Shown here: positions 21,356 to 48,545 of the stretch, one piece after another
How positions within the stretch are numbered: position 1 is the stretch's first letter
How the letters are laid out: every line of letters begins with the position of its first letter
Origin: a virus
Direction: 5' to 3' (one strand)
DNA: 53,060 nt
Virus record (IMG/VR): IMGVR_UViG_3300027554_000056
Coordinates: 1-53,060 of that record
The notes under the pieces: model-generated
Databases searched by the model: none
What the model was told of the DNA's origin: nothing
The model's input: the letters and a program-made list of their open reading frames with translations, nothing else
Position numbers and translations under genes: made by a program

Positions 21356-22104
21356 TGGCTGATAAACCGCTCAAGCAGCTGGTCAGTACCAATTTTATGC
21401 TCAACCAAATTCAAAACGCGGTAGTTCATCCACTAGCGTCTGATCCAGCGGCACCGGTAGATTTTCAAATTTGGGGAAACACCACCACCAACAAAATTAA
21501 AATTAAGATCAATGGTGTTGTCGAAGAGCTTGCGACACTTGGAGATGTAAACGCCGGTGGTTTATCAACTGCCACGTTTGACGCAAATACCATATTAAAA
21601 GCCGATGCTGATGATACTCCGGTGGCTCTGCCAGTAGCGCCCTCTAGCATATTAGGCCGCGCGGCAGCTGGAGGCATCGCAGCGTTGACGCCTGCTGAAG
21701 TTAAAACTGTTCTGGGTATTCCTGCTGGGGCGTTGGCAGATCAAGGATATGTAGACAACCAAATAGCCACTTTGATTGATACATCCCCAGATGCGCTGAA
21801 CACGTTGAATGAGCTTGCTGCAGCTTTGGGTGATGACGCCAACTTTTCAGCAACGGTAAATTTCGCCCTTGGTAATCGAACGCAGCAATTCACAACATTA
21901 ATTGGTGATGCAACTGCAACCACGTTTGCGTTGACACATGGCTTTACGCGCAATGTGACTGCTGCGTTATACAAGGAATCAGGTGGCGAGCGCTATTGGG
22001 CAGGAGAAAGCGCCGGTCCGGCTGCATCTGTAACTTACACATTCGATTTCGCAGCACCCCCGGCCAACAATGAATATCGTGTCGTCATTCAGGGACTGGC
22101 GTAG
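21355..22104 (+). CDS. Tail-fibre-type protein with phage tail repeat (249 aa)
   Basis: Residues 125-165 (YVDNQIATLIDTSPDALNTL then NELAAALGDDANFSATV) match the well known phage tail-fibre repeat. A C-terminal beta-sandwich domain (180-249, TLIGDATATTFALTHGFTRN, then YTFDFAAPPANNEYRVVI) is shared with the preceding protein. The N-terminal 80 residues are beta-rich and may attach to the virion (TNKIKIKINGVVEEL). It is expected to be a trimeric, receptor-binding or spacer fibre. Confidence 0.75.
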   Translation: MADKPLKQLVSTNFMLNQIQNAVVHPLASDPAAPVDFQIWGNTTTNKIKIKINGVVEELATLGDVNAGGLSTATFDANTILKADADDTPVALPVAPSSILGRAAAGGIAALTPAEVKTVLGIPAGALADQGYVDNQIATLIDTSPDALNTLNELAAALGDDANFSATVNFALGNRTQQFTTLIGDATATTFALTHGFTRNVTAALYKESGGERYWAGESAGPAASVTYTFDFAAPPANNEYRVVIQGLA

Positions 22105-22138
22105 ATCAATAGGTGGATAACGTTCGGAGCATCGAGTT

Positions 22139-24025
22139 ATGACTGGATTTGATCCAATATTGAACCTTGGTCAAAGTGCCGTTGGTGTAGGAACCAAGGC
22201 AGAGCGCTTAGTTGCGAATAATAATTTTCTTTGGTATCAGGATGACGGTTCAATTTGGGAAAAAGCGTTCGGTTCCAACGTGTGGGTACGTCGAAACTTT
22301 GCAGGAGAAGAGCTAACGGTTGACGCATCAATAACACATCAGGCGGTGAAATACACAATAGCTCATTTATCTGATAGTGCGGCCGCTGCAACTGAATATC
22401 AACTCAAGCTAACAATGTTAGATCAGAGTAACCAGGAAATCATTATCAGCGGTGATTCTCTTGCTGCAGCTCCAACATTAATCACAGACAATCGGCTTAT
22501 TAAGGAAGCTGAGAATACCGCTACAGCTATAACCGGGACAATGGGCAGTTTAGAGATCGATAAGCTTTCTGCTGCGTTATGGGGACGAATACGCTTCGAA
22601 TATAAGGTAACGGACTCAAACAACGATTTTGGTGTCAAGACACTTGAGCAGCACGGCTTATTTGCTACTGACCCACTACCAATCTACGACTGCACGCCAA
22701 GTAACTTTGTTTCTCAGCTCGCAGCGATGCTGGCGAATGGTGGGGGGACATTAAATCTAACTACTCCTGGTAACTACGACCTTATAGGATTAGAAGGAGG
22801 AAAAACAGCGTTTAAATCTGATAGTGCCGGAGGTTTAAACACTATGCTGGTGCGTGGTCTCGGGAAAGACGCTGGGACAGTCATAAGATTCACTGATAAT
22901 GGCGGATTTAATCAAGTCAGACCAATAAACATAATCAATAGCAGTAACTTAGAATTTGCTGATCTTGAGATTGATGGTTACTGGGTCAATCACTATCACC
23001 CTGACACACCATCTCGATTGAACACCACGCATGGTATAAAGCATGGCGCGGTTGATTATTGGAAAGGCGACGGTTTGGCAGTATATGACTGGATCGGAAA
23101 AGAAGGTATAGACAACGGATACGATGAGCACGGCGCAACTATCCAATTTGATAACGCCACAATTATGCACCAGTCAAACATTCTGTTACGTGACTGTACT
23201 AACGTCTTACTGAGAAACGTTAGAAGCGTTCGTGCCGGTGGAGATGGATTTAATTTTGGAGATGTTAGTGGTGTGTTTTTGGATAACACTCTTATTGATG
23301 ACTGCATGAGAAACGGCGTTACTTTTGGGCAGACTGGCTCATCCAATATAGACATTGGAATAGGTGGAAACTGTGAGCTAGGTGCTTTGAATAACGTTCA
23401 AAACGTAGATTTCGAACATTCAATTATTAATCAAAATATTTGGCTACACAGCGGTATAACTGTTGGTGAGCAGGATTATGATTACATTGACCAAGATCAG
23501 ATATGGGCGTTGGCTGATGTTGACGGGGTTCATTTGGGCGCTATTGATGTAAATAAAACACCTATAGCAATACGTAACTCGACCGGTGTGGTTTGCAATG
23601 ATGTTACGAATATCGGAGCATTGGTTGTTGATGGCACCAGCGATACGCCGGTATTTAATAATCCAACGTTTGATATTGATGGGTCCAAGTTACGTCGCGT
23701 TTCAGAGGGAGGATCAATTCAGAATGGAGTTTATGTGCCATTTATTCTAGCTGGGATTTTATGTCGAGAAGCTAACGGTGGACGTCCAGTTGGTTTGGAG
23801 TTAAATAACCCAACTATCGTTGCAAATAACATAGATACAGATGTTATTGAGATTAATAGTGTCGAATCGTTCAAAATGGAAAACGCTACGCTAACTGGTG
23901 ATAATGGATGGGGCACGGCCCTCAGACTAAGAGGTAAATCTTCATCAGAACCATTGGACGCGGAGCTTTCCGATAACTCAGCAAATCTCGCTCCGACCAT
24001 CGTGTCAGATGTCAATCTAATTTAG
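22139..24025 (+). CDS. Beta-helix tailspike (628 aa)
   Basis: N-terminal part (1-170) looks like a beta-sandwich adaptor (TKAERLVANNNFLWYQDDGS). From about 180 on is a right-handed beta-helix of the pectate-lyase-like type: many short rungs with Asn/Asp turns such as NSSNLEFADLEIDGYW, NVLLRNVRSVRAGGDGFNFG, NTLIDDCMRNGVTFG. Tailspikes of this kind bind and often cut host capsule or O-antigen. Acidic residues in the HHP- and GDG-containing rungs could be catalytic. It lies before the packaging genes, unlike in lambda. Confidence 0.8.
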   Translation: MTGFDPILNLGQSAVGVGTKAERLVANNNFLWYQDDGSIWEKAFGSNVWVRRNFAGEELTVDASITHQAVKYTIAHLSDSAAAATEYQLKLTMLDQSNQEIIISGDSLAAAPTLITDNRLIKEAENTATAITGTMGSLEIDKLSAALWGRIRFEYKVTDSNNDFGVKTLEQHGLFATDPLPIYDCTPSNFVSQLAAMLANGGGTLNLTTPGNYDLIGLEGGKTAFKSDSAGGLNTMLVRGLGKDAGTVIRFTDNGGFNQVRPINIINSSNLEFADLEIDGYWVNHYHPDTPSRLNTTHGIKHGAVDYWKGDGLAVYDWIGKEGIDNGYDEHGATIQFDNATIMHQSNILLRDCTNVLLRNVRSVRAGGDGFNFGDVSGVFLDNTLIDDCMRNGVTFGQTGSSNIDIGIGGNCELGALNNVQNVDFEHSIINQNIWLHSGITVGEQDYDYIDQDQIWALADVDGVHLGAIDVNKTPIAIRNSTGVVCNDVTNIGALVVDGTSDTPVFNNPTFDIDGSKLRRVSEGGSIQNGVYVPFILAGILCREANGGRPVGLELNNPTIVANNIDTDVIEINSVESFKMENATLTGDNGWGTALRLRGKSSSEPLDAELSDNSANLAPTIVSDVNLI

Positions 24026-24035
24026 GTTAATAGAA

Positions 24036-24659
24036 ATGGGCATACCAGCAGAAGTCAGTAAAAGCGGGCCATTCCCTATACTTGGTGTTGTAGATGATGT
24101 TACAAAAGAAGTGTTGGATGTGTTGGGGTATTACCCAGAAAGTGATACATGGGATGCGATACCCGCGAGCGAAGATTCGGCAAGTGCTCCCAGCAGTATT
24201 ACACCATTTAAGGATTACTTATTAAACGATCACTCGTTCGATTCAAATAATCAATACCAGTTACCAAACCCTGCTGGCAGCTTATCTTTTCTACTTAATA
24301 AAGTAGGTGAGTTCAGCATAGAAGGCTTCATTCAATACAGAGCAAACGCAACTAGCGATATACAAACTACTATCAATTATTCTGAAACTAAGTTGTCTGG
24401 AGCAGTAGGATTTAACGGAGCTACATTCGGAGATGCTGCGCCGACGGTAGCCCAAATGCAAACAGCATCTGGTTTTGATACTGATCAAGCGAAGTTTGCA
24501 GGAGATGCTTTACTGGATATGCACGTAAATATCAAAGGCTCCATAAAAGTTGATTCGATAACAGGAATACTTACTCTTTCATATGCTCAGCGAATTATAC
24601 ATGCAGACACAGTAATAGTACGCGCAGGCAGCTATTTAACTGCAACTCAAATTGGCTAA
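24036..24659 (+). CDS. Fibre-associated protein (207 aa)
   Basis: ATG at 24036, 11 bases after the spike gene. The N-terminus (MGIPAEVSKSGPFPILGVVDDVTKEVLDVLGYYP) is followed by a Ser/Ala-rich linker and a beta-rich domain (LSFLLNKVGEFSIEGFIQYR, then DMHVNIKGSIKVDSITGILTLSY). It may be a spike tip, tail-fibre chaperone or virion decoration protein. Expression with the spike supports a virion role; the family is not recognised. Confidence 0.55.
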   Translation: MGIPAEVSKSGPFPILGVVDDVTKEVLDVLGYYPESDTWDAIPASEDSASAPSSITPFKDYLLNDHSFDSNNQYQLPNPAGSLSFLLNKVGEFSIEGFIQYRANATSDIQTTINYSETKLSGAVGFNGATFGDAAPTVAQMQTASGFDTDQAKFAGDALLDMHVNIKGSIKVDSITGILTLSYAQRIIHADTVIVRAGSYLTATQIG

Positions 24660-24770
24660 CAGGTCATGCGACAGATTGATCTGATATCGCTACATTGGCA
24701 GCAATGTTTTATGTTTTGCGTCGCCGCATTATTAATCAACGGGTCCTTCCCATGCATATACGGTCATAGC

Positions 24771-24790
24771 GGGTGGTAAGCCTCCCGGTT
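24771..24790 (+). terminator. Hairpin upstream of the terminase genes
   Basis: GGGTGG-taag-CCTCCC followed by GGTTTTC forms a short stem with a weak T-run. The 24660-24838 gap must also hold the entry to the packaging genes, and in a lambda-type phage cos would be expected here; GGGTCCTTCCC at 24741-24751 is a possible part of it. Confidence 0.4.
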
Positions 24791-24838
24791 TTCGTGAATA
24801 TTTCAAACCTCTATGCGCCACAGCAGCAGGTGAGCTGA

Positions 24839-25369
24839 GTGCATGCTGTTAAGGCTCGGCAGGGTTGGAGTAAGTCTGATCTTGCCAATGAGTTTGGAAT
24901 CGATAGGCGACGTGTGGACACGCTTCTCGAAGGTGTCGAGGCAAGGGGTAATAAATTCAGAGGGCATCCGACTTATTGGATTGCTGATGTTGCATTGCCC
25001 CTGGCTCAATACGCTAAAAAACAAACGACACCGAACAGCCAGCCGCAGACCGACGATGATGGAAACGATCTCGTTATTGGTTTAGGTGAAGGCCAATTGC
25101 ATCCGGACAAGCTTGACCCGAAAAGCCGAAAGGAATGGTACGACGGCGAGAAGGTCCGAAAGATCATGCTTAAAGATGATGCTGATCTGGTACCCAAATC
25201 TGAGGTTCGTGCAGGTCAGGCCAGTTTGTTTAAAACTATGAAGGCCTTTCTGTTGACGCTGCCCGATGTGCTTGAACGTGATGCAGGGTTGCCGCCGAAG
25301 GCCATAGCGCGAACCGCGGTATTAGCCGATAAGTTGTGTGACAACTTCGCCGATCTAGCTAACGACTAA
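24839..25369 (+). CDS. Terminase small subunit, DUF1441/Nu1-like (176 aa)
   Basis: GTG start at 24839 after AGGTGAG. The N-terminus is a helix-turn-helix (GWSKSDLANEFGIDRRRVDT) as in Nu1-type small terminases that recognise cos. The C-terminal part has the DUF1441 pattern LVPKSEVRAGQASLFKTMKAFLLTLPDVLERD and LPPKAIARTAV. It precedes the large subunit directly (its TAA overlaps ATG by one base). It should bind the packaging site and load the large subunit. Confidence 0.85.
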   Translation: MHAVKARQGWSKSDLANEFGIDRRRVDTLLEGVEARGNKFRGHPTYWIADVALPLAQYAKKQTTPNSQPQTDDDGNDLVIGLGEGQLHPDKLDPKSRKEWYDGEKVRKIMLKDDADLVPKSEVRAGQASLFKTMKAFLLTLPDVLERDAGLPPKAIARTAVLADKLCDNFADLAND

Positions 25370-27471
25370 TGAGCTACGCCAGCTGGAATGAAATTTTGAA
25401 GGAAACTTCAAAGTTGGTCCGGGTTGGTGAGCGCTTAACGGTCCCGAAAGCTGCTGAGGCGTACGTCAAAACCGAGTCTGGTGATTGGTCTAATGATCTG
25501 ACCTACTACATGAACAAGCCTGCAGAGACACTAACGTCTCGATTGCATAAAGGTGTCGTATTCGTTGGCCCTGCAAGGACCGGCAAGTCTCAAGCGTTAG
25601 GGGATAACTGGGTGGCGCACAACGTTATGTGCGACCCGACTGACATGCTGCTGGTTTTTCCTTCTGGCAGAACAGCTGAACGATTCTCGAAGAGGCGGCT
25701 GGATAAAATGCATCGGCATTCTCCAGACATCCGTGCAGAGTTGGGTGATCAATCGTCTGATAACAACATTGGCGAAAAAACCTACAAATCTGGTGCTTGT
25801 GTGATGCTGGTTAGTCCGACAAAAAACACTTTGTCGACGTTGGATTTCTGCAAGGTTTTGTTGTCCGATTACGAACGTTATGACCTGGACATCGGTGGTG
25901 ATGGTTCAGCATGGGTCATGGGTTCGAAGCGAACGCAAACGTTCTTAAGTCGAGGCATGACATGCGCTGAGTCGTCACCATCGAGACCGATACTTGATTC
26001 GTCTTGGGTGATACCGGCCGAATCTCCACACCTTGCACCGCCATGCGAAGGTGTTCTTGAGCTCTACAACGAAGGCACACGTCACCGGTTATATGCAAAG
26101 TGCCAGCATTGCGGCGAGTACTGGTTGCCCGGTCCTGATTATCGATCGGCGTTTATACCTGAGGCGGGTGATTATTCAAGTATCAAGGACCGAGCTCGTG
26201 ATTGTGGTTTGCCTTGTGCTATTTGCGGTTCGATTAATACGCAAACAGATCTTGATGGCGATGGTTACTCTCACGAGCACCACTTAAAGCGATCAGGCGT
26301 GTGGGTTGCTGAAGGTCAAATGATTAATCAATATGGAGAAGTCTCCGGTCAAGTCTATGACACGGAAATAGACTCTTATTGGATGCCTGGTTGGTTTGCC
26401 GCATTTCAAAGCTGGCAGGGAATATTTGAAAGAACGCTGGCTGGTTTGGATTCATTCGATCGAACCGGCCGTGAGGACAAGCTCAAAGGCACGGTAAACG
26501 TCGATCAGGGCGCACCGTTCCTATCGCTACACCGTCAAAGCGATACCAGCGCTAAGTCACTAATGGAAAAAGCACAGGATGTTGAGGCACCGCATCAGAA
26601 GGGTGTTGTTCCTGACTGGGGTCGGTACCTGATCGGCACCATAGATAACCAGGCTTATTCGCTTGATTTGCAAGTGCACGCATTTGGCATTGATGGCCAA
26701 TACACCGTTATCGATCGACACGCAATCACTGTCTCTGAATCTCGCAAGGATGTTAACGGCAAGCCGGTCGTGATCGAGGCGGCCACGTACGTCGAAGACT
26801 TAGCCGTTTTGTTTCCTGAGATGATTGACAAGAAATACCCGACCGATGACGGCCGGATGATGTCAATCAAAGCTGTCTTCATGGACATGCATGGCGCACC
26901 AGGGCTCTCGCCAAATGCCCGTCAATTCTGGCGCGACTGTCATGCACAGGGCAAGGGCGATCGAGTTCGATTGGTTCGTGGTGGTTCAAACAAGCGAGCC
27001 GACTTGTATAAACAAACATGGCCGGATTCGACCGACAAGGCGAGCAACGCAAAACCGTTCGCATCCATTGCACGTGGTGATGTACCGGTGTTAACGCTCA
27101 ACACCGACACGGCCAAGGACATGGTTAAGAGATCACTGGATCGCGAGACAGTCGGTCCAGGTTACCTACACCTTCCGACCTGGGCTGACTTGAGTTGGTT
27201 CGAGGAAATAGTTGCAGAGATTCGCAAGCCTTCAGGGGTTTGGGAGAAGGCTGGTGACCATGTTCGAAACGAAACGCTAGACCACCTTACATATGCCCAG
27301 GCCGGTAACGATTACATTGGCGGCAACTTGATCGATTGGGAGAGTCCACCGGATTGGGCGGCACCATGGAAAGACAATAGCCTTATCGAAGGCAACGTGA
27401 GCAGGGACAATGAAGGTAATGTGCCTGCTTTTTTTGATGATGATTTCGGAGATAACGATCCATGGCTGTAG
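25369..27471 (+). CDS. Terminase large subunit, lambda GpA type (700 aa)
   Basis: Packaging motor and cos nuclease. Walker A at residues 67-74 (GPARTGKS), a Walker-B-like VLLSDYERYD near 162-171, and a zinc-type CxxC pair (KCQHCGEYW ... LPCAICGS). The C-terminal half contains the nuclease region (GTIDNQAYSLDLQVHAFGID, then MDMHGAPGLSPNARQFWRDC) and ends with the NETLDHLTYAQAG motif common in this family. Length is normal. It overlaps gpW by 10 bases. Strong identification. Confidence 0.95.
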   Translation: MSYASWNEILKETSKLVRVGERLTVPKAAEAYVKTESGDWSNDLTYYMNKPAETLTSRLHKGVVFVGPARTGKSQALGDNWVAHNVMCDPTDMLLVFPSGRTAERFSKRRLDKMHRHSPDIRAELGDQSSDNNIGEKTYKSGACVMLVSPTKNTLSTLDFCKVLLSDYERYDLDIGGDGSAWVMGSKRTQTFLSRGMTCAESSPSRPILDSSWVIPAESPHLAPPCEGVLELYNEGTRHRLYAKCQHCGEYWLPGPDYRSAFIPEAGDYSSIKDRARDCGLPCAICGSINTQTDLDGDGYSHEHHLKRSGVWVAEGQMINQYGEVSGQVYDTEIDSYWMPGWFAAFQSWQGIFERTLAGLDSFDRTGREDKLKGTVNVDQGAPFLSLHRQSDTSAKSLMEKAQDVEAPHQKGVVPDWGRYLIGTIDNQAYSLDLQVHAFGIDGQYTVIDRHAITVSESRKDVNGKPVVIEAATYVEDLAVLFPEMIDKKYPTDDGRMMSIKAVFMDMHGAPGLSPNARQFWRDCHAQGKGDRVRLVRGGSNKRADLYKQTWPDSTDKASNAKPFASIARGDVPVLTLNTDTAKDMVKRSLDRETVGPGYLHLPTWADLSWFEEIVAEIRKPSGVWEKAGDHVRNETLDHLTYAQAGNDYIGGNLIDWESPPDWAAPWKDNSLIEGNVSRDNEGNVPAFFDDDFGDNDPWL

Positions 27472-31022: not shown

Positions 31023-32045
31023 ATGACACCAGAAGAAATCCTAGCGTATTGGATGCTTAAATCGCGTGATCTAATTAAGATCGCAAGTACAGTGCCTTAC
31101 CGGCCCAGTTATTTGCAGTCTTTGAACATCACCACGTTTAAGCCGATCACTACGACTGAAGTGACTGTCCAGGTGCAAGCACCTGGTAAATTGGCTTTGA
31201 TTCAGACTACCGAACGTGGTGGTCCGATTGAGCAAGATACGCCAAAGAGTGGCGATCTACGTGTGTTGCCGACTTTTCGTTTAGCCAAAGGCGCAACTAT
31301 CCGAAGCCACGAGCTGCGTGATGTTGTTATGTTTGGCGAGGGCACTGTTAAAAAGCGTATTGGTGCCGAGCTGGCAGAGCGGTTTGCTGCCATCGATGAA
31401 GACATGACGCTGACTGAAGAGCACATGCTCATGGGTGCGGTGCAGGGAATCATCATGGATGCTGATGGCACCACACCACTTTTAGATTGTTTCACTGAGT
31501 TTGGTGCGCCAGCCCGAGCGACTATAAATCTGGATTGGGCTAACTGGACAATCGGGGATGCTCGAAAGTTCTTTAATAACTTGAAACGCGAAATGACTCG
31601 CGAAATGACTGGTTTGTCCGGCCGCGGCAAAATGATCGCGCTTTGTGGCGATCAAGCATACGACGATCTAGTTACCGCCCCTGCGGTCGAGAAACTCTAT
31701 GCGTCGCACTCTGGTGCTCGGGAACTTGAAAAGATCGGTCAAGCTTATGAAAGCTTCCCGTTTGCCGGTATTGAGTGGCATAACTATCGTGGCACCGATG
31801 ACATGACCACGATTAAAATCCCCGACAATGAAGTTCGGTTCTTCCCTGCAGGCGTTAAGGACTTGTTCCTTGATGTTCGTGCACCGGGTGAGACTATTTC
31901 AGATTTGTCGGTCAAGGGCAAACGTCGTAATCCAGTAATGCTTCGTGATAAAGATCGTGATTTCTGGATGAAGGCGGAGCAGTACACTTACCCGAGTTAC
32001 GTTTGCACGCGTCCTGGTGTGCTTCGTAAAGGAGTATTGGTGTGA
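31023..32045 (+). CDS. Major capsid protein, gpE-like (340 aa)
   Basis: Builds the icosahedral head. Typical Phage_cap_E elements: the N-terminal YRPSYLQSLNITTFKPITTT, the LRVLPTFRLAKGATIRSHEL strand, and a C-terminal region with KTFRGTDDM-like and NPVMLRDKDRDFWMKAEQYT stretches. ATG at 31023 after AGGAAACTTAAGAGA. The protein is of normal length for the family. It overlaps the next gene by four bases (GTGA). Confidence 0.93.
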   Translation: MTPEEILAYWMLKSRDLIKIASTVPYRPSYLQSLNITTFKPITTTEVTVQVQAPGKLALIQTTERGGPIEQDTPKSGDLRVLPTFRLAKGATIRSHELRDVVMFGEGTVKKRIGAELAERFAAIDEDMTLTEEHMLMGAVQGIIMDADGTTPLLDCFTEFGAPARATINLDWANWTIGDARKFFNNLKREMTREMTGLSGRGKMIALCGDQAYDDLVTAPAVEKLYASHSGARELEKIGQAYESFPFAGIEWHNYRGTDDMTTIKIPDNEVRFFPAGVKDLFLDVRAPGETISDLSVKGKRRNPVMLRDKDRDFWMKAEQYTYPSYVCTRPGVLRKGVLV

Positions 32046-32701
32046 TAGTGGGTGTGGCCATGGGTCTTAATTTAAGACCCGGCCGTACCCTAAAGCGCGG
32101 TGCTTACATTGTTGGTGACGGTATCACTGCTGCTGAGGCAAAGACTGTGCTGAGTAATCCGCGATGGGGCCGAAAGATTGAAAAGTCGGAGATTCCCGTG
32201 TTTGGCGGATTGGTTGGAAGTGCAAAAGCACCGGCAAATAAGTTTCCCGATGTCCCTGTAGCTTCCGGTGCTGACGCCGATGCGAAAGCCAAAGCTGATG
32301 CCGATGCGAAAGCTAAAGCTGATGCCGATGCGAAAGCTAAAGCTGACGCCGATGCGAAAGCTAAAGCTGACGCCGATGCGAAAGCTAAAGCTGACGCCGA
32401 TGCGAAAGCCAAAGCTGATGCCGATGCGAAAGCCAAAGCTGATGCCGATGCGAAAGCCAAAGCTGATGCCGATGCTAAGCTCGCTGCACTTCCTGCATTA
32501 AATTCTGATGACGCAACGCTAAAAGCTGGGCTAAGTGTTCTGAACAAAGCGGACATGGATGCTTATTGGGATGCTCAAGACGAAGAAGTCATGGCAGTGT
32601 TCCTGGTCGAACGTGTTGGCCGTGAGCGCAAGCAATGGAACCGCGGAATGATGGGTAACATGATTCAAAACCATCTAGGTATTCCAGAGCCAGTTGTTTA
32701 A
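32042..32701 (+). CDS. FI-like protein with AKADAD tandem repeats (219 aa)
   Basis: GTG start at 32042 with GGAG upstream. The N-terminal 75 residues form a folded part (AYIVGDGITAAEAKTVLSNP), then eight full copies of an 8-residue unit DADAKAKA (about 78-141), then a C-terminal part with LKAGLSVLNKADMDAYWDA. The position after the capsid gene is that of lambda FI, which has a role in packaging. The repeat is acidic-basic and Ala-rich, probably a rigid or extended helix. Assigning FI is by position only. Confidence 0.6.
   Translation: MIVGVAMGLNLRPGRTLKRGAYIVGDGITAAEAKTVLSNPRWGRKIEKSEIPVFGGLVGSAKAPANKFPDVPVASGADADAKAKADADAKAKADADAKAKADADAKAKADADAKAKADADAKAKADADAKAKADADAKAKADADAKLAALPALNSDDATLKAGLSVLNKADMDAYWDAQDEEVMAVFLVERVGRERKQWNRGMMGNMIQNHLGIPEPVV
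32062..32080. repeat. Perfect inverted repeat at the start of the FI-like gene
   Basis: GGGTCTTAA and TTAAGACCC flank a single T. It lies at the fourth to tenth codons and could form an RNA hairpin near the start or act as a protein site. Function unknown. Confidence 0.6.
32273..32479 (+). repeat. Tandem 24-base coding repeat
   Basis: Eight full 24-base units start every 24 bases from 32273 to 32441, with a partial ninth. Units differ at only two positions, both synonymous C/T changes (GAC/GAT and GCC/GCT), so they are recent copies under strong protein-level constraint or recent expansion. They encode the 8-residue DADAKAKA unit. Confidence 0.9.
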
Positions 32702-34495: not shown

Positions 34496-34902
34496 TGCCA
34501 CTATCGACCAAAACAGCCCGTCTGACTATCGGCGGTGTCCGCATCATGGAAGTCATAGATGTAACTCCATCTCAATCGGTTGAGGAGGAAGATACGAGTG
34601 TTATAGATCGCGCTGAATCCGCCTATGCACCGCGTATAGAGATTGAGCCCGGCACACCGGAGCTCGCTGCAAATCTCTACGTTGATCTGACAGACCCAGG
34701 GCAATCTGCACTGAGCTTGGGGGCGGCTGGTATTGAAGCGGTGCTCACACCTGCAGGCACCGCCTCTGGAATGCTCCGTCAGACTTATAGCGATTGCATT
34801 GTTACTGAATATCCACTGCAGACAATTGCATACAAGGGCAAGCTCAAGCGAACTCTGAAGCTCAAGGCAAACGGCGGCATGATTGAGGACACCATTCCGT
34901 AG
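34495..34902 (+). CDS. Major tail (tube) protein candidate (135 aa)
   Basis: ATG at 34495. Beta-rich protein with STKTARLTIGGVRIMEVIDV, then IEIEPGTPELAANLYVDLTD and a strand-rich LQTIAYKGKLKRTLKL end. Position directly before the G-like chaperone gene is that of the tail-tube gene V in lambda. It overlaps the chaperone start (GTG) by one base. Identification is mostly by position and fold look. Confidence 0.65.
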   Translation: MPLSTKTARLTIGGVRIMEVIDVTPSQSVEEEDTSVIDRAESAYAPRIEIEPGTPELAANLYVDLTDPGQSALSLGAAGIEAVLTPAGTASGMLRQTYSDCIVTEYPLQTIAYKGKLKRTLKLKANGGMIEDTIP

Positions 34903-35651
34903 TGTTCAACATTAATGACGCAAAAAAACGCATCGCCGAGCTTGGCGTACTCCAAGGGCCGATCATCGTTGCCGATTGTGGTGATGATGGTTTGGCTGGT
35001 GAGGTTTACTATCACCAGCTGACTGTTGGGGTGGATCGAAAGATACGGGCACTGCAGCGCACGCATCCGGACACCTGTAATTATCGCGAGCTATTGCTTC
35101 GCTCGCTTGATAAAGAAGGCGATCGCATTTGGGAAGATGAAGAGATCACTGAAATTTTAAACGGTGGAATCGACCCTATTGACGTGGCTTTTATCGTTGG
35201 CTCCATGTATGCCGGTGATAAAGCGAAAAAAATAGATTTGAAATCAGGGCCGTTCAACAAGGCATCTGCCCGGAAATTGTTCGAAGACAATGATTGTCTC
35301 TATGGTCCGGTTAATGTGCCAGGCATTGGTCCTGAAGATGGTCCGTTAGAGATTTACTACAGGCCAAACAACGGACTGAAAGATGCGGCAATTTCTGTAT
35401 TAAAAATCAAAAACCCCGACGACTGGGATATTCGATTACTGATTCAGCGTGCAAGAACAAAGGATGACAAACCTATGTTCAAGACTCAGCACCTGCCTAC
35501 GCTTGCATCGGCGCTTAAGCAGGAAGAACTAACCCGTGTGACCGCGCAAATGATGCACCCAAGGTTCATGCCCGAACAAGTTCGAATAGAGCTAGCGGTC
35601 GCGCAGGAGGCAAATCAAGAGCTGCACGTGGACGACCTAAAAAACTCATAG
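34902..35651 (+). CDS. Tail assembly chaperone, G-like (249 aa)
   Basis: GTG start at 34902. It lies between the tail-tube and tape-measure genes, the place of lambda gene G. The sequence is mostly helical and acidic, with the end QVRIELAVAQEANQELHVDD. Near the stop a perfect -1 slippery heptamer (A AAA AAC, 35639-35645) allows a longer product. Such chaperones bind the tape measure protein and recruit tube subunits; they are not in the finished virion. Confidence 0.8.
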   Translation: MFNINDAKKRIAELGVLQGPIIVADCGDDGLAGEVYYHQLTVGVDRKIRALQRTHPDTCNYRELLLRSLDKEGDRIWEDEEITEILNGGIDPIDVAFIVGSMYAGDKAKKIDLKSGPFNKASARKLFEDNDCLYGPVNVPGIGPEDGPLEIYYRPNNGLKDAAISVLKIKNPDDWDIRLLIQRARTKDDKPMFKTQHLPTLASALKQEELTRVTAQMMHPRFMPEQVRIELAVAQEANQELHVDDLKNS

Positions 35652-35803
35652 AGGCAGATGGTGAACTTAGATACTTATTGCGCCGTGCTGAAAAAGCCGG
35701 TCGCAACTTGTCATCTGCCACAAATGAGTTTGATTTACCAAGGCTTGAGTTTCTACTCAAAATCGCATACGCAAATTTTCAAACAGAACAGGGAAACAAT
35801 TAA
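34902..35803 (+). CDS. Frameshifted tail assembly chaperone, GT-like (300 aa)
   Basis: Ribosomes slipping back one base at A AAA AAC (35639-35645) leave the G frame after Asn248 and continue in the -1 frame from 35645 to the TAA at 35801-35803. This adds 52 residues (LIEADGELRYLLRRAEKAGR and on). The extension is open until four bases before the tape-measure start and fills a gap that would otherwise be non-coding. The same device makes gpGT in lambda. Confidence 0.82.
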
Positions 35804-35807
35804 CTAA

Positions 35808-37877
35808 ATGGCTAGAGCGAGCGCAGTCTATGACATGGTCCTATCGGACAAGTCAGAAACCGGCCGCACGTCGTTCTTAGGCAGTATTGATCGAATAGAT
35901 AAGCGCACAGCTGCATTGGCGGTAGGTGGCTTTGCAGCATTGGCGACAGCAGGTGTGGGTGCTTTCACAGCGATTCTAGCCACGCAAGGCCCTGTGATTG
36001 ATGAGATCGGCAAGATGTCCGAGGTGTTGGGCATAAGCGTCACCTCCTTACAAGCAATGAAGGATGCTGGAGAGAGGGCTGATGTACCGCTTGGTTTGAT
36101 AGAAAAATCATTAAAAAAGATGACGGCTGCTGTGTCGGATGCCAATAATGGTACCGGTGCTGCTGTCAAGTCACTTGCAGAGCTTGGCATTGGTGTTGAG
36201 GAGCTCAATAAGCTTGCACCTGATGAGCAATTTAAAAGAATTAGTGATGCGCTCGCTGACGTTGGCAACCGCAATGATCAGCTGAGACTGTCAGAGGATT
36301 TCTTTGGCAGTCGCGGCACGAACTTGCTTCGATTAACCAGCTCAGCAATAAATGATGCTGAAAAGGAAATGCGAGATCTTGGCATAGCGTTGACTGAGAT
36401 CGATGTCGAGAACGTTGAGCAGATGAACGATGCTATTCAGCGAGTGCAAAGAAACGCCACAGGTGCACAGCAAGTGTTTCTAGCGGAGATGGCTCCGGCT
36501 ATCAGGTCTGTATTGGATGAAGTTTTTGCCGTCGATGAAGCGATCGGTAATGTACGCGGTACTTCCAATGGATTGGCAGACGGATTGATCGAGGTAATTG
36601 GCTTTATTGGCGACGTTTTCCAAGGACTGGATAATTCCTTTGATTTTGTCAACTTGTTATTTGCGAAGGCGGGCGCGATTGATGCGAAAATATTTGATTT
36701 TTTCAAAGGCACAGAAGATTCGGCTGCGGAAGTGGTTAGAGCCGCCCAGGCTGCGCAACAACTAGATGACAATCTCGCGGGCCAGGTCAATGAAGCGGCA
36801 TTCAGTGAGCAATTGAAAGCCCGCCGCCAACTCTATGAAGAGGAGGCTGCTGCGAACGCCAAAGCGATCGAAGAGGGTCGTGCGGCGCGTGATGCTAGAG
36901 CAGGGAGCGATACATCTGGCGGCACATCATCTTTGACAGATCAGAGTGAGGCTAGGGCCGCAGAAGCTGCTGCTAGGGCTGAAGAAAGAGCGCAGAAGGC
37001 AGCCGCTACTAAAGCAAAGCGAGATGAAGCACAAGCCGAGCGTGATCGAGAGCAGGAAATTGCTCGCGTTACACGACTTGCTGAACAGGAAAAACGCGAA
37101 CTTGAAGCAGCGGAAAGAGCTGAGGAACGAGAAAAGCAGATACAAGAATCCAAGCTTGAGCGCATCCGTGAAGCTGGACTGTCCGAAGATCAAATATTGT
37201 TGGAACGCCAACAAGCAACAAACGAGTTTTTAGATTCGATAGCAGCTAATGATGTCTCTCGCACTGCTGAAATTAATGCTATCAAGAAAGCCTCAAACGA
37301 GGATTACTACGACAAACAATTAGCGCTCATAGAGCGCAGCCATGCGGAAGCAAACCGTCTCGAAGCTGCTCAACTCAAGGCCGGAAAGTCATACGTTGAA
37401 GAGGGCATAGCGTACTTTGCTGAGCAATCACAAGCAGCCGACGCAATACACAAAGGCCTTGTGGCTGTTCGCATGGTCCGAGAAGGTAAAGAGGCGGTCA
37501 TTGGTGCGTACAAATGGGGCAACAGTATCGGCGGGCCTGGCTTTGGTGCTGTCGCCGCGGGCGTTGCGATCGCTTACACAGGTGCACTGATCAACGAAGC
37601 GGTTGGCGGTGGTAGCGGAACTAGCTCACCACCTTCAGGGGTCGCTGAAACTGCAACTGATTCAGAAACAGCCGCAACCACAGCCGCGACCACAGAAGAG
37701 CAGCAGAACACCACTTCAGTCATATACAACGCCTACTTCAGAACAAGTGATACAGAAAATCGAGAATCGCGGGCAGCAGCTGAGTTGCAGGCTGACATCG
37801 ATGCTAAGCGTGTTGACTTTGGTCCTAACGTGCAAGTTACCACCAATATCTTGGACTATGAGGACTTCAGAACATGA
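35808..37877 (+). CDS. Tail tape measure protein (689 aa)
   Basis: Sets tail length and later helps DNA entry. The N-terminal helix-rich part (SVTSLQAMKDAGERADVPLG, then KMTAAVSDANNGTGAAVKSL and FFGSRGTNLLRL) is characteristic of tape measures. A long charged coiled coil at about 400-470 follows, and a Gly/Ala-rich hydrophobic segment near 570-600 (SIGGPGFGAVAAGVAIAYTG) ends it. At roughly 1.5 angstrom per residue the tail would be near 100 nm. ATG at 35808. Confidence 0.92.
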   Translation: MARASAVYDMVLSDKSETGRTSFLGSIDRIDKRTAALAVGGFAALATAGVGAFTAILATQGPVIDEIGKMSEVLGISVTSLQAMKDAGERADVPLGLIEKSLKKMTAAVSDANNGTGAAVKSLAELGIGVEELNKLAPDEQFKRISDALADVGNRNDQLRLSEDFFGSRGTNLLRLTSSAINDAEKEMRDLGIALTEIDVENVEQMNDAIQRVQRNATGAQQVFLAEMAPAIRSVLDEVFAVDEAIGNVRGTSNGLADGLIEVIGFIGDVFQGLDNSFDFVNLLFAKAGAIDAKIFDFFKGTEDSAAEVVRAAQAAQQLDDNLAGQVNEAAFSEQLKARRQLYEEEAAANAKAIEEGRAARDARAGSDTSGGTSSLTDQSEARAAEAAARAEERAQKAAATKAKRDEAQAERDREQEIARVTRLAEQEKRELEAAERAEEREKQIQESKLERIREAGLSEDQILLERQQATNEFLDSIAANDVSRTAEINAIKKASNEDYYDKQLALIERSHAEANRLEAAQLKAGKSYVEEGIAYFAEQSQAADAIHKGLVAVRMVREGKEAVIGAYKWGNSIGGPGFGAVAAGVAIAYTGALINEAVGGGSGTSSPPSGVAETATDSETAATTAATTEEQQNTTSVIYNAYFRTSDTENRESRAAAELQADIDAKRVDFGPNVQVTTNILDYEDFRT

Positions 37878-47437: not shown

Positions 47438-47542
47438 GGTAGGCATGAAAGCTGCCGTTGAATAGGTGGCGAGCCTACCGAAGTAGGCCCAAACGACCGT
47501 GTCTCACCACGGTCATTCCACAACCGCTTAAACGGAGCGATC
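47438..47542 (+). promoter_or_regulatory. Structured leader with alternative hairpins
   Basis: GCCTACC at 47473-47479 can pair upstream with GGTAGGC (47438-47444) or downstream with GTAGGC (47483-47488, CGAA tetraloop); the two pairings exclude each other. A third perfect hairpin, GACCGTG/CACGGTC (47495-47514), and a short CCG-CTTAAA-CGG at the ribosome site AACGGAG follow. This fits a riboswitch, thermosensor or attenuator controlling the downstream membrane protein gene. No known riboswitch class is recognised. Confidence 0.5.
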
Positions 47543-48313
47543 ATGACCAATATCAATAGTAGTGTGCGCGAGTTACTTGCGCCAGAAGAAAAACGCCATT
47601 TATCCTTTATTAAGTACGCATGCGTCGCTGTGTCGCTCATGCAGGCCGGTTCTGTTGTATGGGCCAAAGCTGCCACCACATTTGAACTAGCTTGGTTCGT
47701 TGGGGCAGTGGGGGTGATCCTGATTGCATCGCTTGCTCTGACTGTTGTCGCTGAGCGCAACTGGGAGGCGGGCAGATATGGCCGAATGTTTCTCTGTGTT
47801 CTAGCTGTGATACTCATCGAGCGCACATCAATTCAATTGTCACTTACTGCCATGGATAGCCGAGAGGTGAGCACAGTGCGTCAGGAGACACTCGACAGCC
47901 CTGAATACAAAGAAGCTCAAGCCAACATCGAGCAATACAACGCTGACCTGGTGTTCTGGAAGCAGGTCGTTGCAAACGCCTGTGCTGGCTGCAGGACCGA
48001 TCGAGAGCAAGCCCAGGCAAACGTCCGAACGATCACAGCCCAGCGCGATGCTGAGCGTGTACGTCGCGACGGCTTAAAGGTATCAACTGCTGAGATCAGC
48101 GCTGACAATGTATCCGAATCATTCTTTGGTCAATCATCGACCGATCTTTGGAAGGTTATGGCGTGGGCGCTGTCGATCGTTCCGCACTTGATCACACTGG
48201 GTTCGGCTCGAGTTGGCTTACCATCTGGTGATACTCCTAAATCTAAAGCAAAGCCGGCATCGAGGGTGACCAGAAAAAAGTCGAGAGCCCGGCCGAAGTT
48301 GCAAGCGGTGTAG
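47543..48313 (+). CDS. Four-helix membrane protein with coiled coil (256 aa)
   Basis: ATG at 47543, with CGGAGCGATC before it. Hydrophobic segments at about 25-42, 47-67, 78-97 and 210-232 (VMAWALSIVPHLITLGSARV) flank a long cytoplasmic or periplasmic loop (105-190) containing helical, charged repeats (TVRQETLDSPEYKEAQANIE, AQANVRTITAQRDAERVRRD) and a CAGC pair. The C-terminal tail is basic (KSKAKPASRVTRKKSRARPK). A slippery A AAA AAG at 48274-48280 would replace the last ten residues with a 75-residue extension. Family not recognised. Confidence 0.7.
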   Translation: MTNINSSVRELLAPEEKRHLSFIKYACVAVSLMQAGSVVWAKAATTFELAWFVGAVGVILIASLALTVVAERNWEAGRYGRMFLCVLAVILIERTSIQLSLTAMDSREVSTVRQETLDSPEYKEAQANIEQYNADLVFWKQVVANACAGCRTDREQAQANVRTITAQRDAERVRRDGLKVSTAEISADNVSESFFGQSSTDLWKVMAWALSIVPHLITLGSARVGLPSGDTPKSKAKPASRVTRKKSRARPKLQAV

Positions 48314-48507
48314 ATTCAGACCTTGCCGATGTCATAGCGAGAGCAGAGCGCGACATCGAGAACGGTGAAGTTGAATCGTTAACCTTGAAGTTTGCGCGTA
48401 ACCGGTACCGGATAAACGCAAACGATGCCCAGAGGCTCAGGGCGGCGTTGTTAGAATCACATCACTTGGTAGTCGCGTCAGGCAATAGATACTTGTCAGC
48501 GGCTTAA
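47543..48507 (+). CDS. Probable -1 frameshift product of the membrane gene (321 aa)
   Basis: Slippage at A AAA AAG (48274-48280) continues in the -1 frame from 48280 to a TAA at 48505-48507 and adds 75 residues. The extension is clearly protein-like: DLADVIARAERDIENGEVES, then FARNRYRINANDAQRLRAAL and LLESHHLVVASGNRYLSAA, a winged-helix-like layout. No normal start codon occurs in this frame before TTG 48384, and the last stop in the frame (48244) lies before the slip site. GAGGG at 48262-48266 sits seven bases before the heptamer, as in dnaX. Confidence 0.7.
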
Positions 48508-48514
48508 TACGACG

Positions 48515-48545
48515 GCTCACCCTTATTGCATGGGTGGGCTATTTT
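48515..48545 (+). terminator. Terminator after the frameshift gene
   Basis: GCTCACCC and GGGTGGGC pair (one G-U) over a 9-base loop, followed by TATTTT. It starts eight bases after the extended-frame stop, which supports that frame being the real end of the gene. It also separates the late operon from the convergent leftward operon. Confidence 0.8.

Follow-up and report, generated by a model that had tools for sequence, protein, structure and literature searches.

We analysed a stretch of viral DNA of 53,060 nucleotides (IMG/VR record IMGVR_UViG_3300027554_000056), referred to below as the window. An orphan phage membrane-protein gene runs on its plus strand from an ATG at 47543 to a TAG at 48311–48313, encoding 256 amino acids in frame 0. 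The -1 frame stays open between 48247 and a TAA at 48505–48507, and the two frames overlap for 67 nt. Reading through from frame 0 into the -1 frame would give a product of 246 + 75 = 321 amino acids. The coordinates were checked, and the features of the locus are as follows.

47468 to 47544, minus strand: RNA of three tight hairpins, cUUCGg loop; weak match to isrB (RF01386); lies across the ribosome binding site and the gene start; possibly antisense
47543 to 48313, plus strand: frame-0 open reading frame, 256 amino acids; about four hydrophobic helices, a CAGC-bearing helical segment and a basic C-terminal tail
48247 to 48313, plus strand: two-frame overlap, the only region in which frame 0 and the extension frame are both open
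48262 to 48266, plus strand: GAGGG, Shine–Dalgarno (SD)-like, 7 nt 5′ of the heptamer (8 nt if taken as GAGG); background 0.13
48274 to 48280, plus strand: slippery heptamer A AAA AAG in frame-0 phase, a run of six As and then G
48280 to 48507, plus strand: -1 frame extension, 75 amino acids and stop; predicted winged-helix-like; fusion of 321 amino acids
48514 to 48540, plus strand: terminator-like hairpin followed by UAUUUU, −16 kcal/mol, z −2.3, just 3′ of the -1 stop

The membrane protein and the RNA at the gene start

Hydropathy predicts four helices in the 256-residue protein, centred near residues 30, 61, 92 and 211; the third and the fourth are separated by a long helical segment that contains CAGC. 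The C-terminal tail past the last helix has 10 Lys/Arg against 1 Asp/Glu and, because of this basic charge, is predicted by the positive-inside rule to be cytoplasmic. The AlphaFold model of this part of the protein is too weak for use (pLDDT 51). Hydrophobic helices were also read in the phage endolysin (18190–19209, plus strand), where a Peptidase_M15 domain is fused to an N-terminal part reading as two such helices; this gene lies far from the tail genes.

The minus strand of 47468–47544 folds into its three hairpins with −41.5 kcal/mol and a z of −4.67, the lowest energy among the top-ranked segments of a folding scan of the whole window; the plus strand gives −29.1 kcal/mol and a z of −3.34, and G–U pairs together with the cUUCGg loop likewise favour the minus strand. 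Given its overlap with the ribosome binding site and start codon, this RNA could act on the membrane gene, to which it is a possible antisense. Its match to Rfam isrB scores 25.1 bits, below the gathering threshold of 35, and we do not claim the family name because related records, mostly at 18–22 bits, come close to the 25 bits of the window. The same scan gave its lowest folding z at 32691, in the flank of a gene (32042–32701, plus strand) whose protein repeats near-identical ADAKAK-type units over a long stretch.

The coding extension in the -1 frame

The firmest result of the analysis is that the extension is genuine coding sequence and most likely part of the membrane gene. Its codon score is 0.156 bits per codon, compared with 0.23 ± 0.09 for the genes of the phage, and when all off-frame 75-codon windows were taken as controls the best of them reached only 0.018. 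The extension has no start codon of its own: there is no ATG, GTG or TTG in the -1 frame before 48385, only the rare candidates ATC 48259, ATA 48334 and ATC 48355. Six nucleotides past the -1 stop begins a hairpin of nine pairs (GGCUCACCC/GGGUGGGCU, 48514–48540), which a simple terminator scan had missed because its loop is 9 nt long. Since the codons are gene-like, a start is lacking and the stop lies near a terminator-like hairpin, the extension most likely belongs to the gene, and we regard a single gene spread across two frames as very probable.

Re-initiation at one of the three rare codons, making the extension a separate small gene, would fit the late block of this phage, where overlapping -1 genes are the rule. 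However, the neighbours in that block are listed with ATG, GTG or TTG starts, and the first such codon here, TTG 48385, would cut off the first helix of the domain; a separate gene is therefore improbable. We consider it equally far-fetched that the open -1 frame arose by chance and yields no product. The absence of a homologue from every collection searched would agree with this, but the codon score exceeds all the off-frame controls, winged-helix-type domains predominate among the top-ranked fold matches, and the hairpin is placed after the -1 stop rather than the frame-0 stop.

The fold of the extension (an example of its peptide sequence is VESPAEVASGVDSDLADVIAR) was modelled with AlphaFold from the single sequence. 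Three helices are predicted with pLDDT of about 74–86, whilst the wing region stays at or below 55. Structural neighbours of the model are mainly winged helices, including GntR/VanR regulators, AraR and the FtsK gamma domain, with VIA Z values of 6.0–6.8 for the best matches and 5.6–6.0 for FtsK gamma, all below the level at which a common arrangement could be excluded. Although the GntR/VanR-type N-terminal domains and FtsK gamma are the best structural neighbours, the extension has no sequence similarity to either. FtsK, too, is a membrane protein and carries its winged helix at the C-terminus, but the phage protein has no motor domain. Searches for a sequence-profile match to the extension found none, a BFVD search gave no informative match, and PADLOC and NCBIfam returned nothing useful.

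A preliminary description of the locus had proposed an extension that looks like folded protein, lacks a start and is followed by a terminator; the codon score and model, the start codons and the hairpin agree with it on all three counts. Its description of the extension as winged-helix-like finds partial backing in the three-helix core and the predominance of winged helices among the top matches, but the wing is of low confidence and there is no profile match. The case for a winged-helix-like domain is fair but not proven.

The slippery site and the origin of the frame change

The A AAA AAG at 48274–48280 is a slippery heptamer of the X XXY YYZ type, phased AGA|AAA|AAG relative to frame 0 and lying inside the overlap. 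No other phased X XXA AAN or X XXT TTN heptamer occurs in the frame-0 open reading frame. At the phage's own rate, a phased A AAA AAG is expected in a random 67-nt coding stretch with P of about 0.004; the value is 0.094 once the encoded Lys-Lys peptide (..TRKKS..) is granted, and 0.0015 with the SD-like element upstream. The background for the SD-like element alone is 0.13.

A GAGG 6–17 nt ahead of the motif is a proven stimulator (PMC4066793), and the GAGG here, 8 nt upstream, falls within that range. Stimulatory SD spacing has also been cited as 8–11 nt (PMC6321510); by this measure the GAGGG at 7 nt is slightly closer and the GAGG at 8 nt just inside. A downstream stimulatory structure would be expected to start about 5–8 nt past the slip site. 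No stem-loop is predicted 3′ of the heptamer, where the close downstream folds are no more stable than those of shuffled sequence, and the downstream folding energy is unremarkable, with 78% of random genic sites at least as structured.

In E. coli dnaX the frameshift product is the shorter form of the protein, whereas in the phage gene it would be the longer. The dnaX site combines A AAA AAG with an SD element and a downstream stem-loop of 10 bp (PMC7282821). The phage gene shares the heptamer in frame-0 phase and the SD-like element upstream, but the third element of such a cassette, the stable stem-loop, is missing, and the SD-like element is slightly closer. Thus the open overlap, the heptamer with its phase and the GAGGG seven bases upstream, all put forward in the preliminary description, were borne out at their exact positions, whilst its phrase ‘as in dnaX’ holds for the heptamer and the upstream element but not for the downstream structure or the exact spacing.

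On paper the gene works like a -1 frameshift cassette, a reading that the sequence partly supports. Most ribosomes would make the 256-residue membrane protein with its short basic cytoplasmic tail. A minority would slip by -1 at A AAA AAG, the two lysyl-tRNAs re-pairing with AAA AAA and the GAGG 8 nt upstream aiding the slip, and would make the 321-residue product, whose cytoplasmic end would be a membrane-tethered winged-helix domain. Given stimulators, A_AAA_AAG ranks with the most efficient -1 motifs in E. coli; without them it gives only about 0.3% (PMC4066793). Lacking a downstream structure, the phage site would probably slip at low efficiency, a few per cent or less.

The phage carries a canonical slippery site in its tail chaperone genes, of the G/GT type, on the plus strand (34902–35651 and 35639–35803), with A AAA AAC at 35639; because of this site, -1 frameshifting is probably functional in its host. 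The -1 frame of that pair has about 54 residues and ends at 35803, 5 nt ahead of the tape-measure start at 35808. The lambda-type G/GT arrangement resembles the membrane gene in that a -1 slip near the 3′ end adds a C-terminal domain to a minor product. It differs in that the membrane gene is an orphan, lies away from the tail-assembly block and has no relatives that would show conservation.

The main rival to programmed frameshifting is an indel, in which an in-frame fusion of 321 amino acids has lost one A from a run of seven, by real mutation or by an assembly or sequencing error, and no programmed slip takes place. This would explain the data almost as well. The break lies exactly in the A run, the likeliest place for indels, and the join falls within a low-complexity linker rich in K, A, P, S and R; the extension has retained gene-like codons, the slip site has no downstream stimulator, and no family conserves it. 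On the other hand, 16 other runs of at least six equal bases occur in intact late open reading frames and none breaks the frame, and under an indel the exact phase and the SD-like element would coincide only by luck (about 1/3 × 0.13). An independent second contig of this phage (L087, IMGVR_UViG_3300005651_000011) also speaks against it: the contig aligns to 21749–27172, a span that does not include the slip site at 48274–48280, and over these 5,424 nt shows 12 mismatches and not a single gap, so that homopolymer errors are uncommon in the assembly. Eleven of these mismatches are clustered in 27078–27168 at the contig end, perhaps through strain mixing or recombination.

The same A run might instead cause slippage of the RNA polymerase, giving a mixed mRNA pool of which part encodes the fusion. 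The A run at the frame junction would agree with such transcriptional slippage, and the product would be the same, but six As are short, the reported sites usually being runs of about 8 or more (PMC3711429), and we think it a slim prospect. The GeneTack survey treats unclustered (singleton) frame transitions as likely indels or errors, and sets orphan genes apart (PMC3711429). Because of this view, we keep programmed -1 frameshifting at A AAA AAG only as a tentative first choice, with the indel, itself a serious possibility, placed little below it.

Relatives and possible role

Conservation would be the decisive evidence, and it is missing because no relative was found by sequence in the collections below or among about 770 genomes and records. 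The membrane part had no homologue in IMG/VR, phages, GTDB contigs or plasmids. The extension had none in IMG/VR, and its search against phages gave only chance matches to DNA polymerases; the 321-residue fusion found no relative among phages at an E value of 10. No relative of the gene was present in 50 records with a related terminase, and apart from the second contig of the same phage the closest records by terminase are only 34–41% identical. Further sets of 299, 369 and 54 genomes gave weak matches only. Six of these loci (L167, L170, L174, L183, L184 and L185) were read and taken as chance, all being in unrelated genes, such as a DapA-like synthase, an LptF-like permease and an amidase. 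No second copy of the slip region was found in IMG/VR with a pattern that left the number of bases between its flanks free, and a scan for the 3 + 1 arrangement of membrane helices among the open reading frames of the fetched loci, which lie near terminases, gave no convincing look-alike.

If the ribosomes do slip, the protein may exist in two stable forms, with a putative nucleic-acid-binding role. The longer might be a membrane-tethered regulator that binds nucleic acid or protein, present at a low ratio to the plain form. The fuller picture, of a temperate phage in which a -1 frameshift makes a minor winged-helix form at a fixed ratio whilst a structured, possibly antisense RNA controls expression, is more doubtful than the slip itself.

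Should the frame change be an indel, the gene would encode one more phage orphan, a membrane protein ending in a winged helix, and would serve to remind us that a lost base and a slippery heptamer look alike within a homopolymer. Should the slip be real, it would be a rare case of a phage frameshift that serves neither a tail chaperone nor an insertion sequence, and would offer a means of setting how much membrane-tethered regulator is made relative to the tail-less form.
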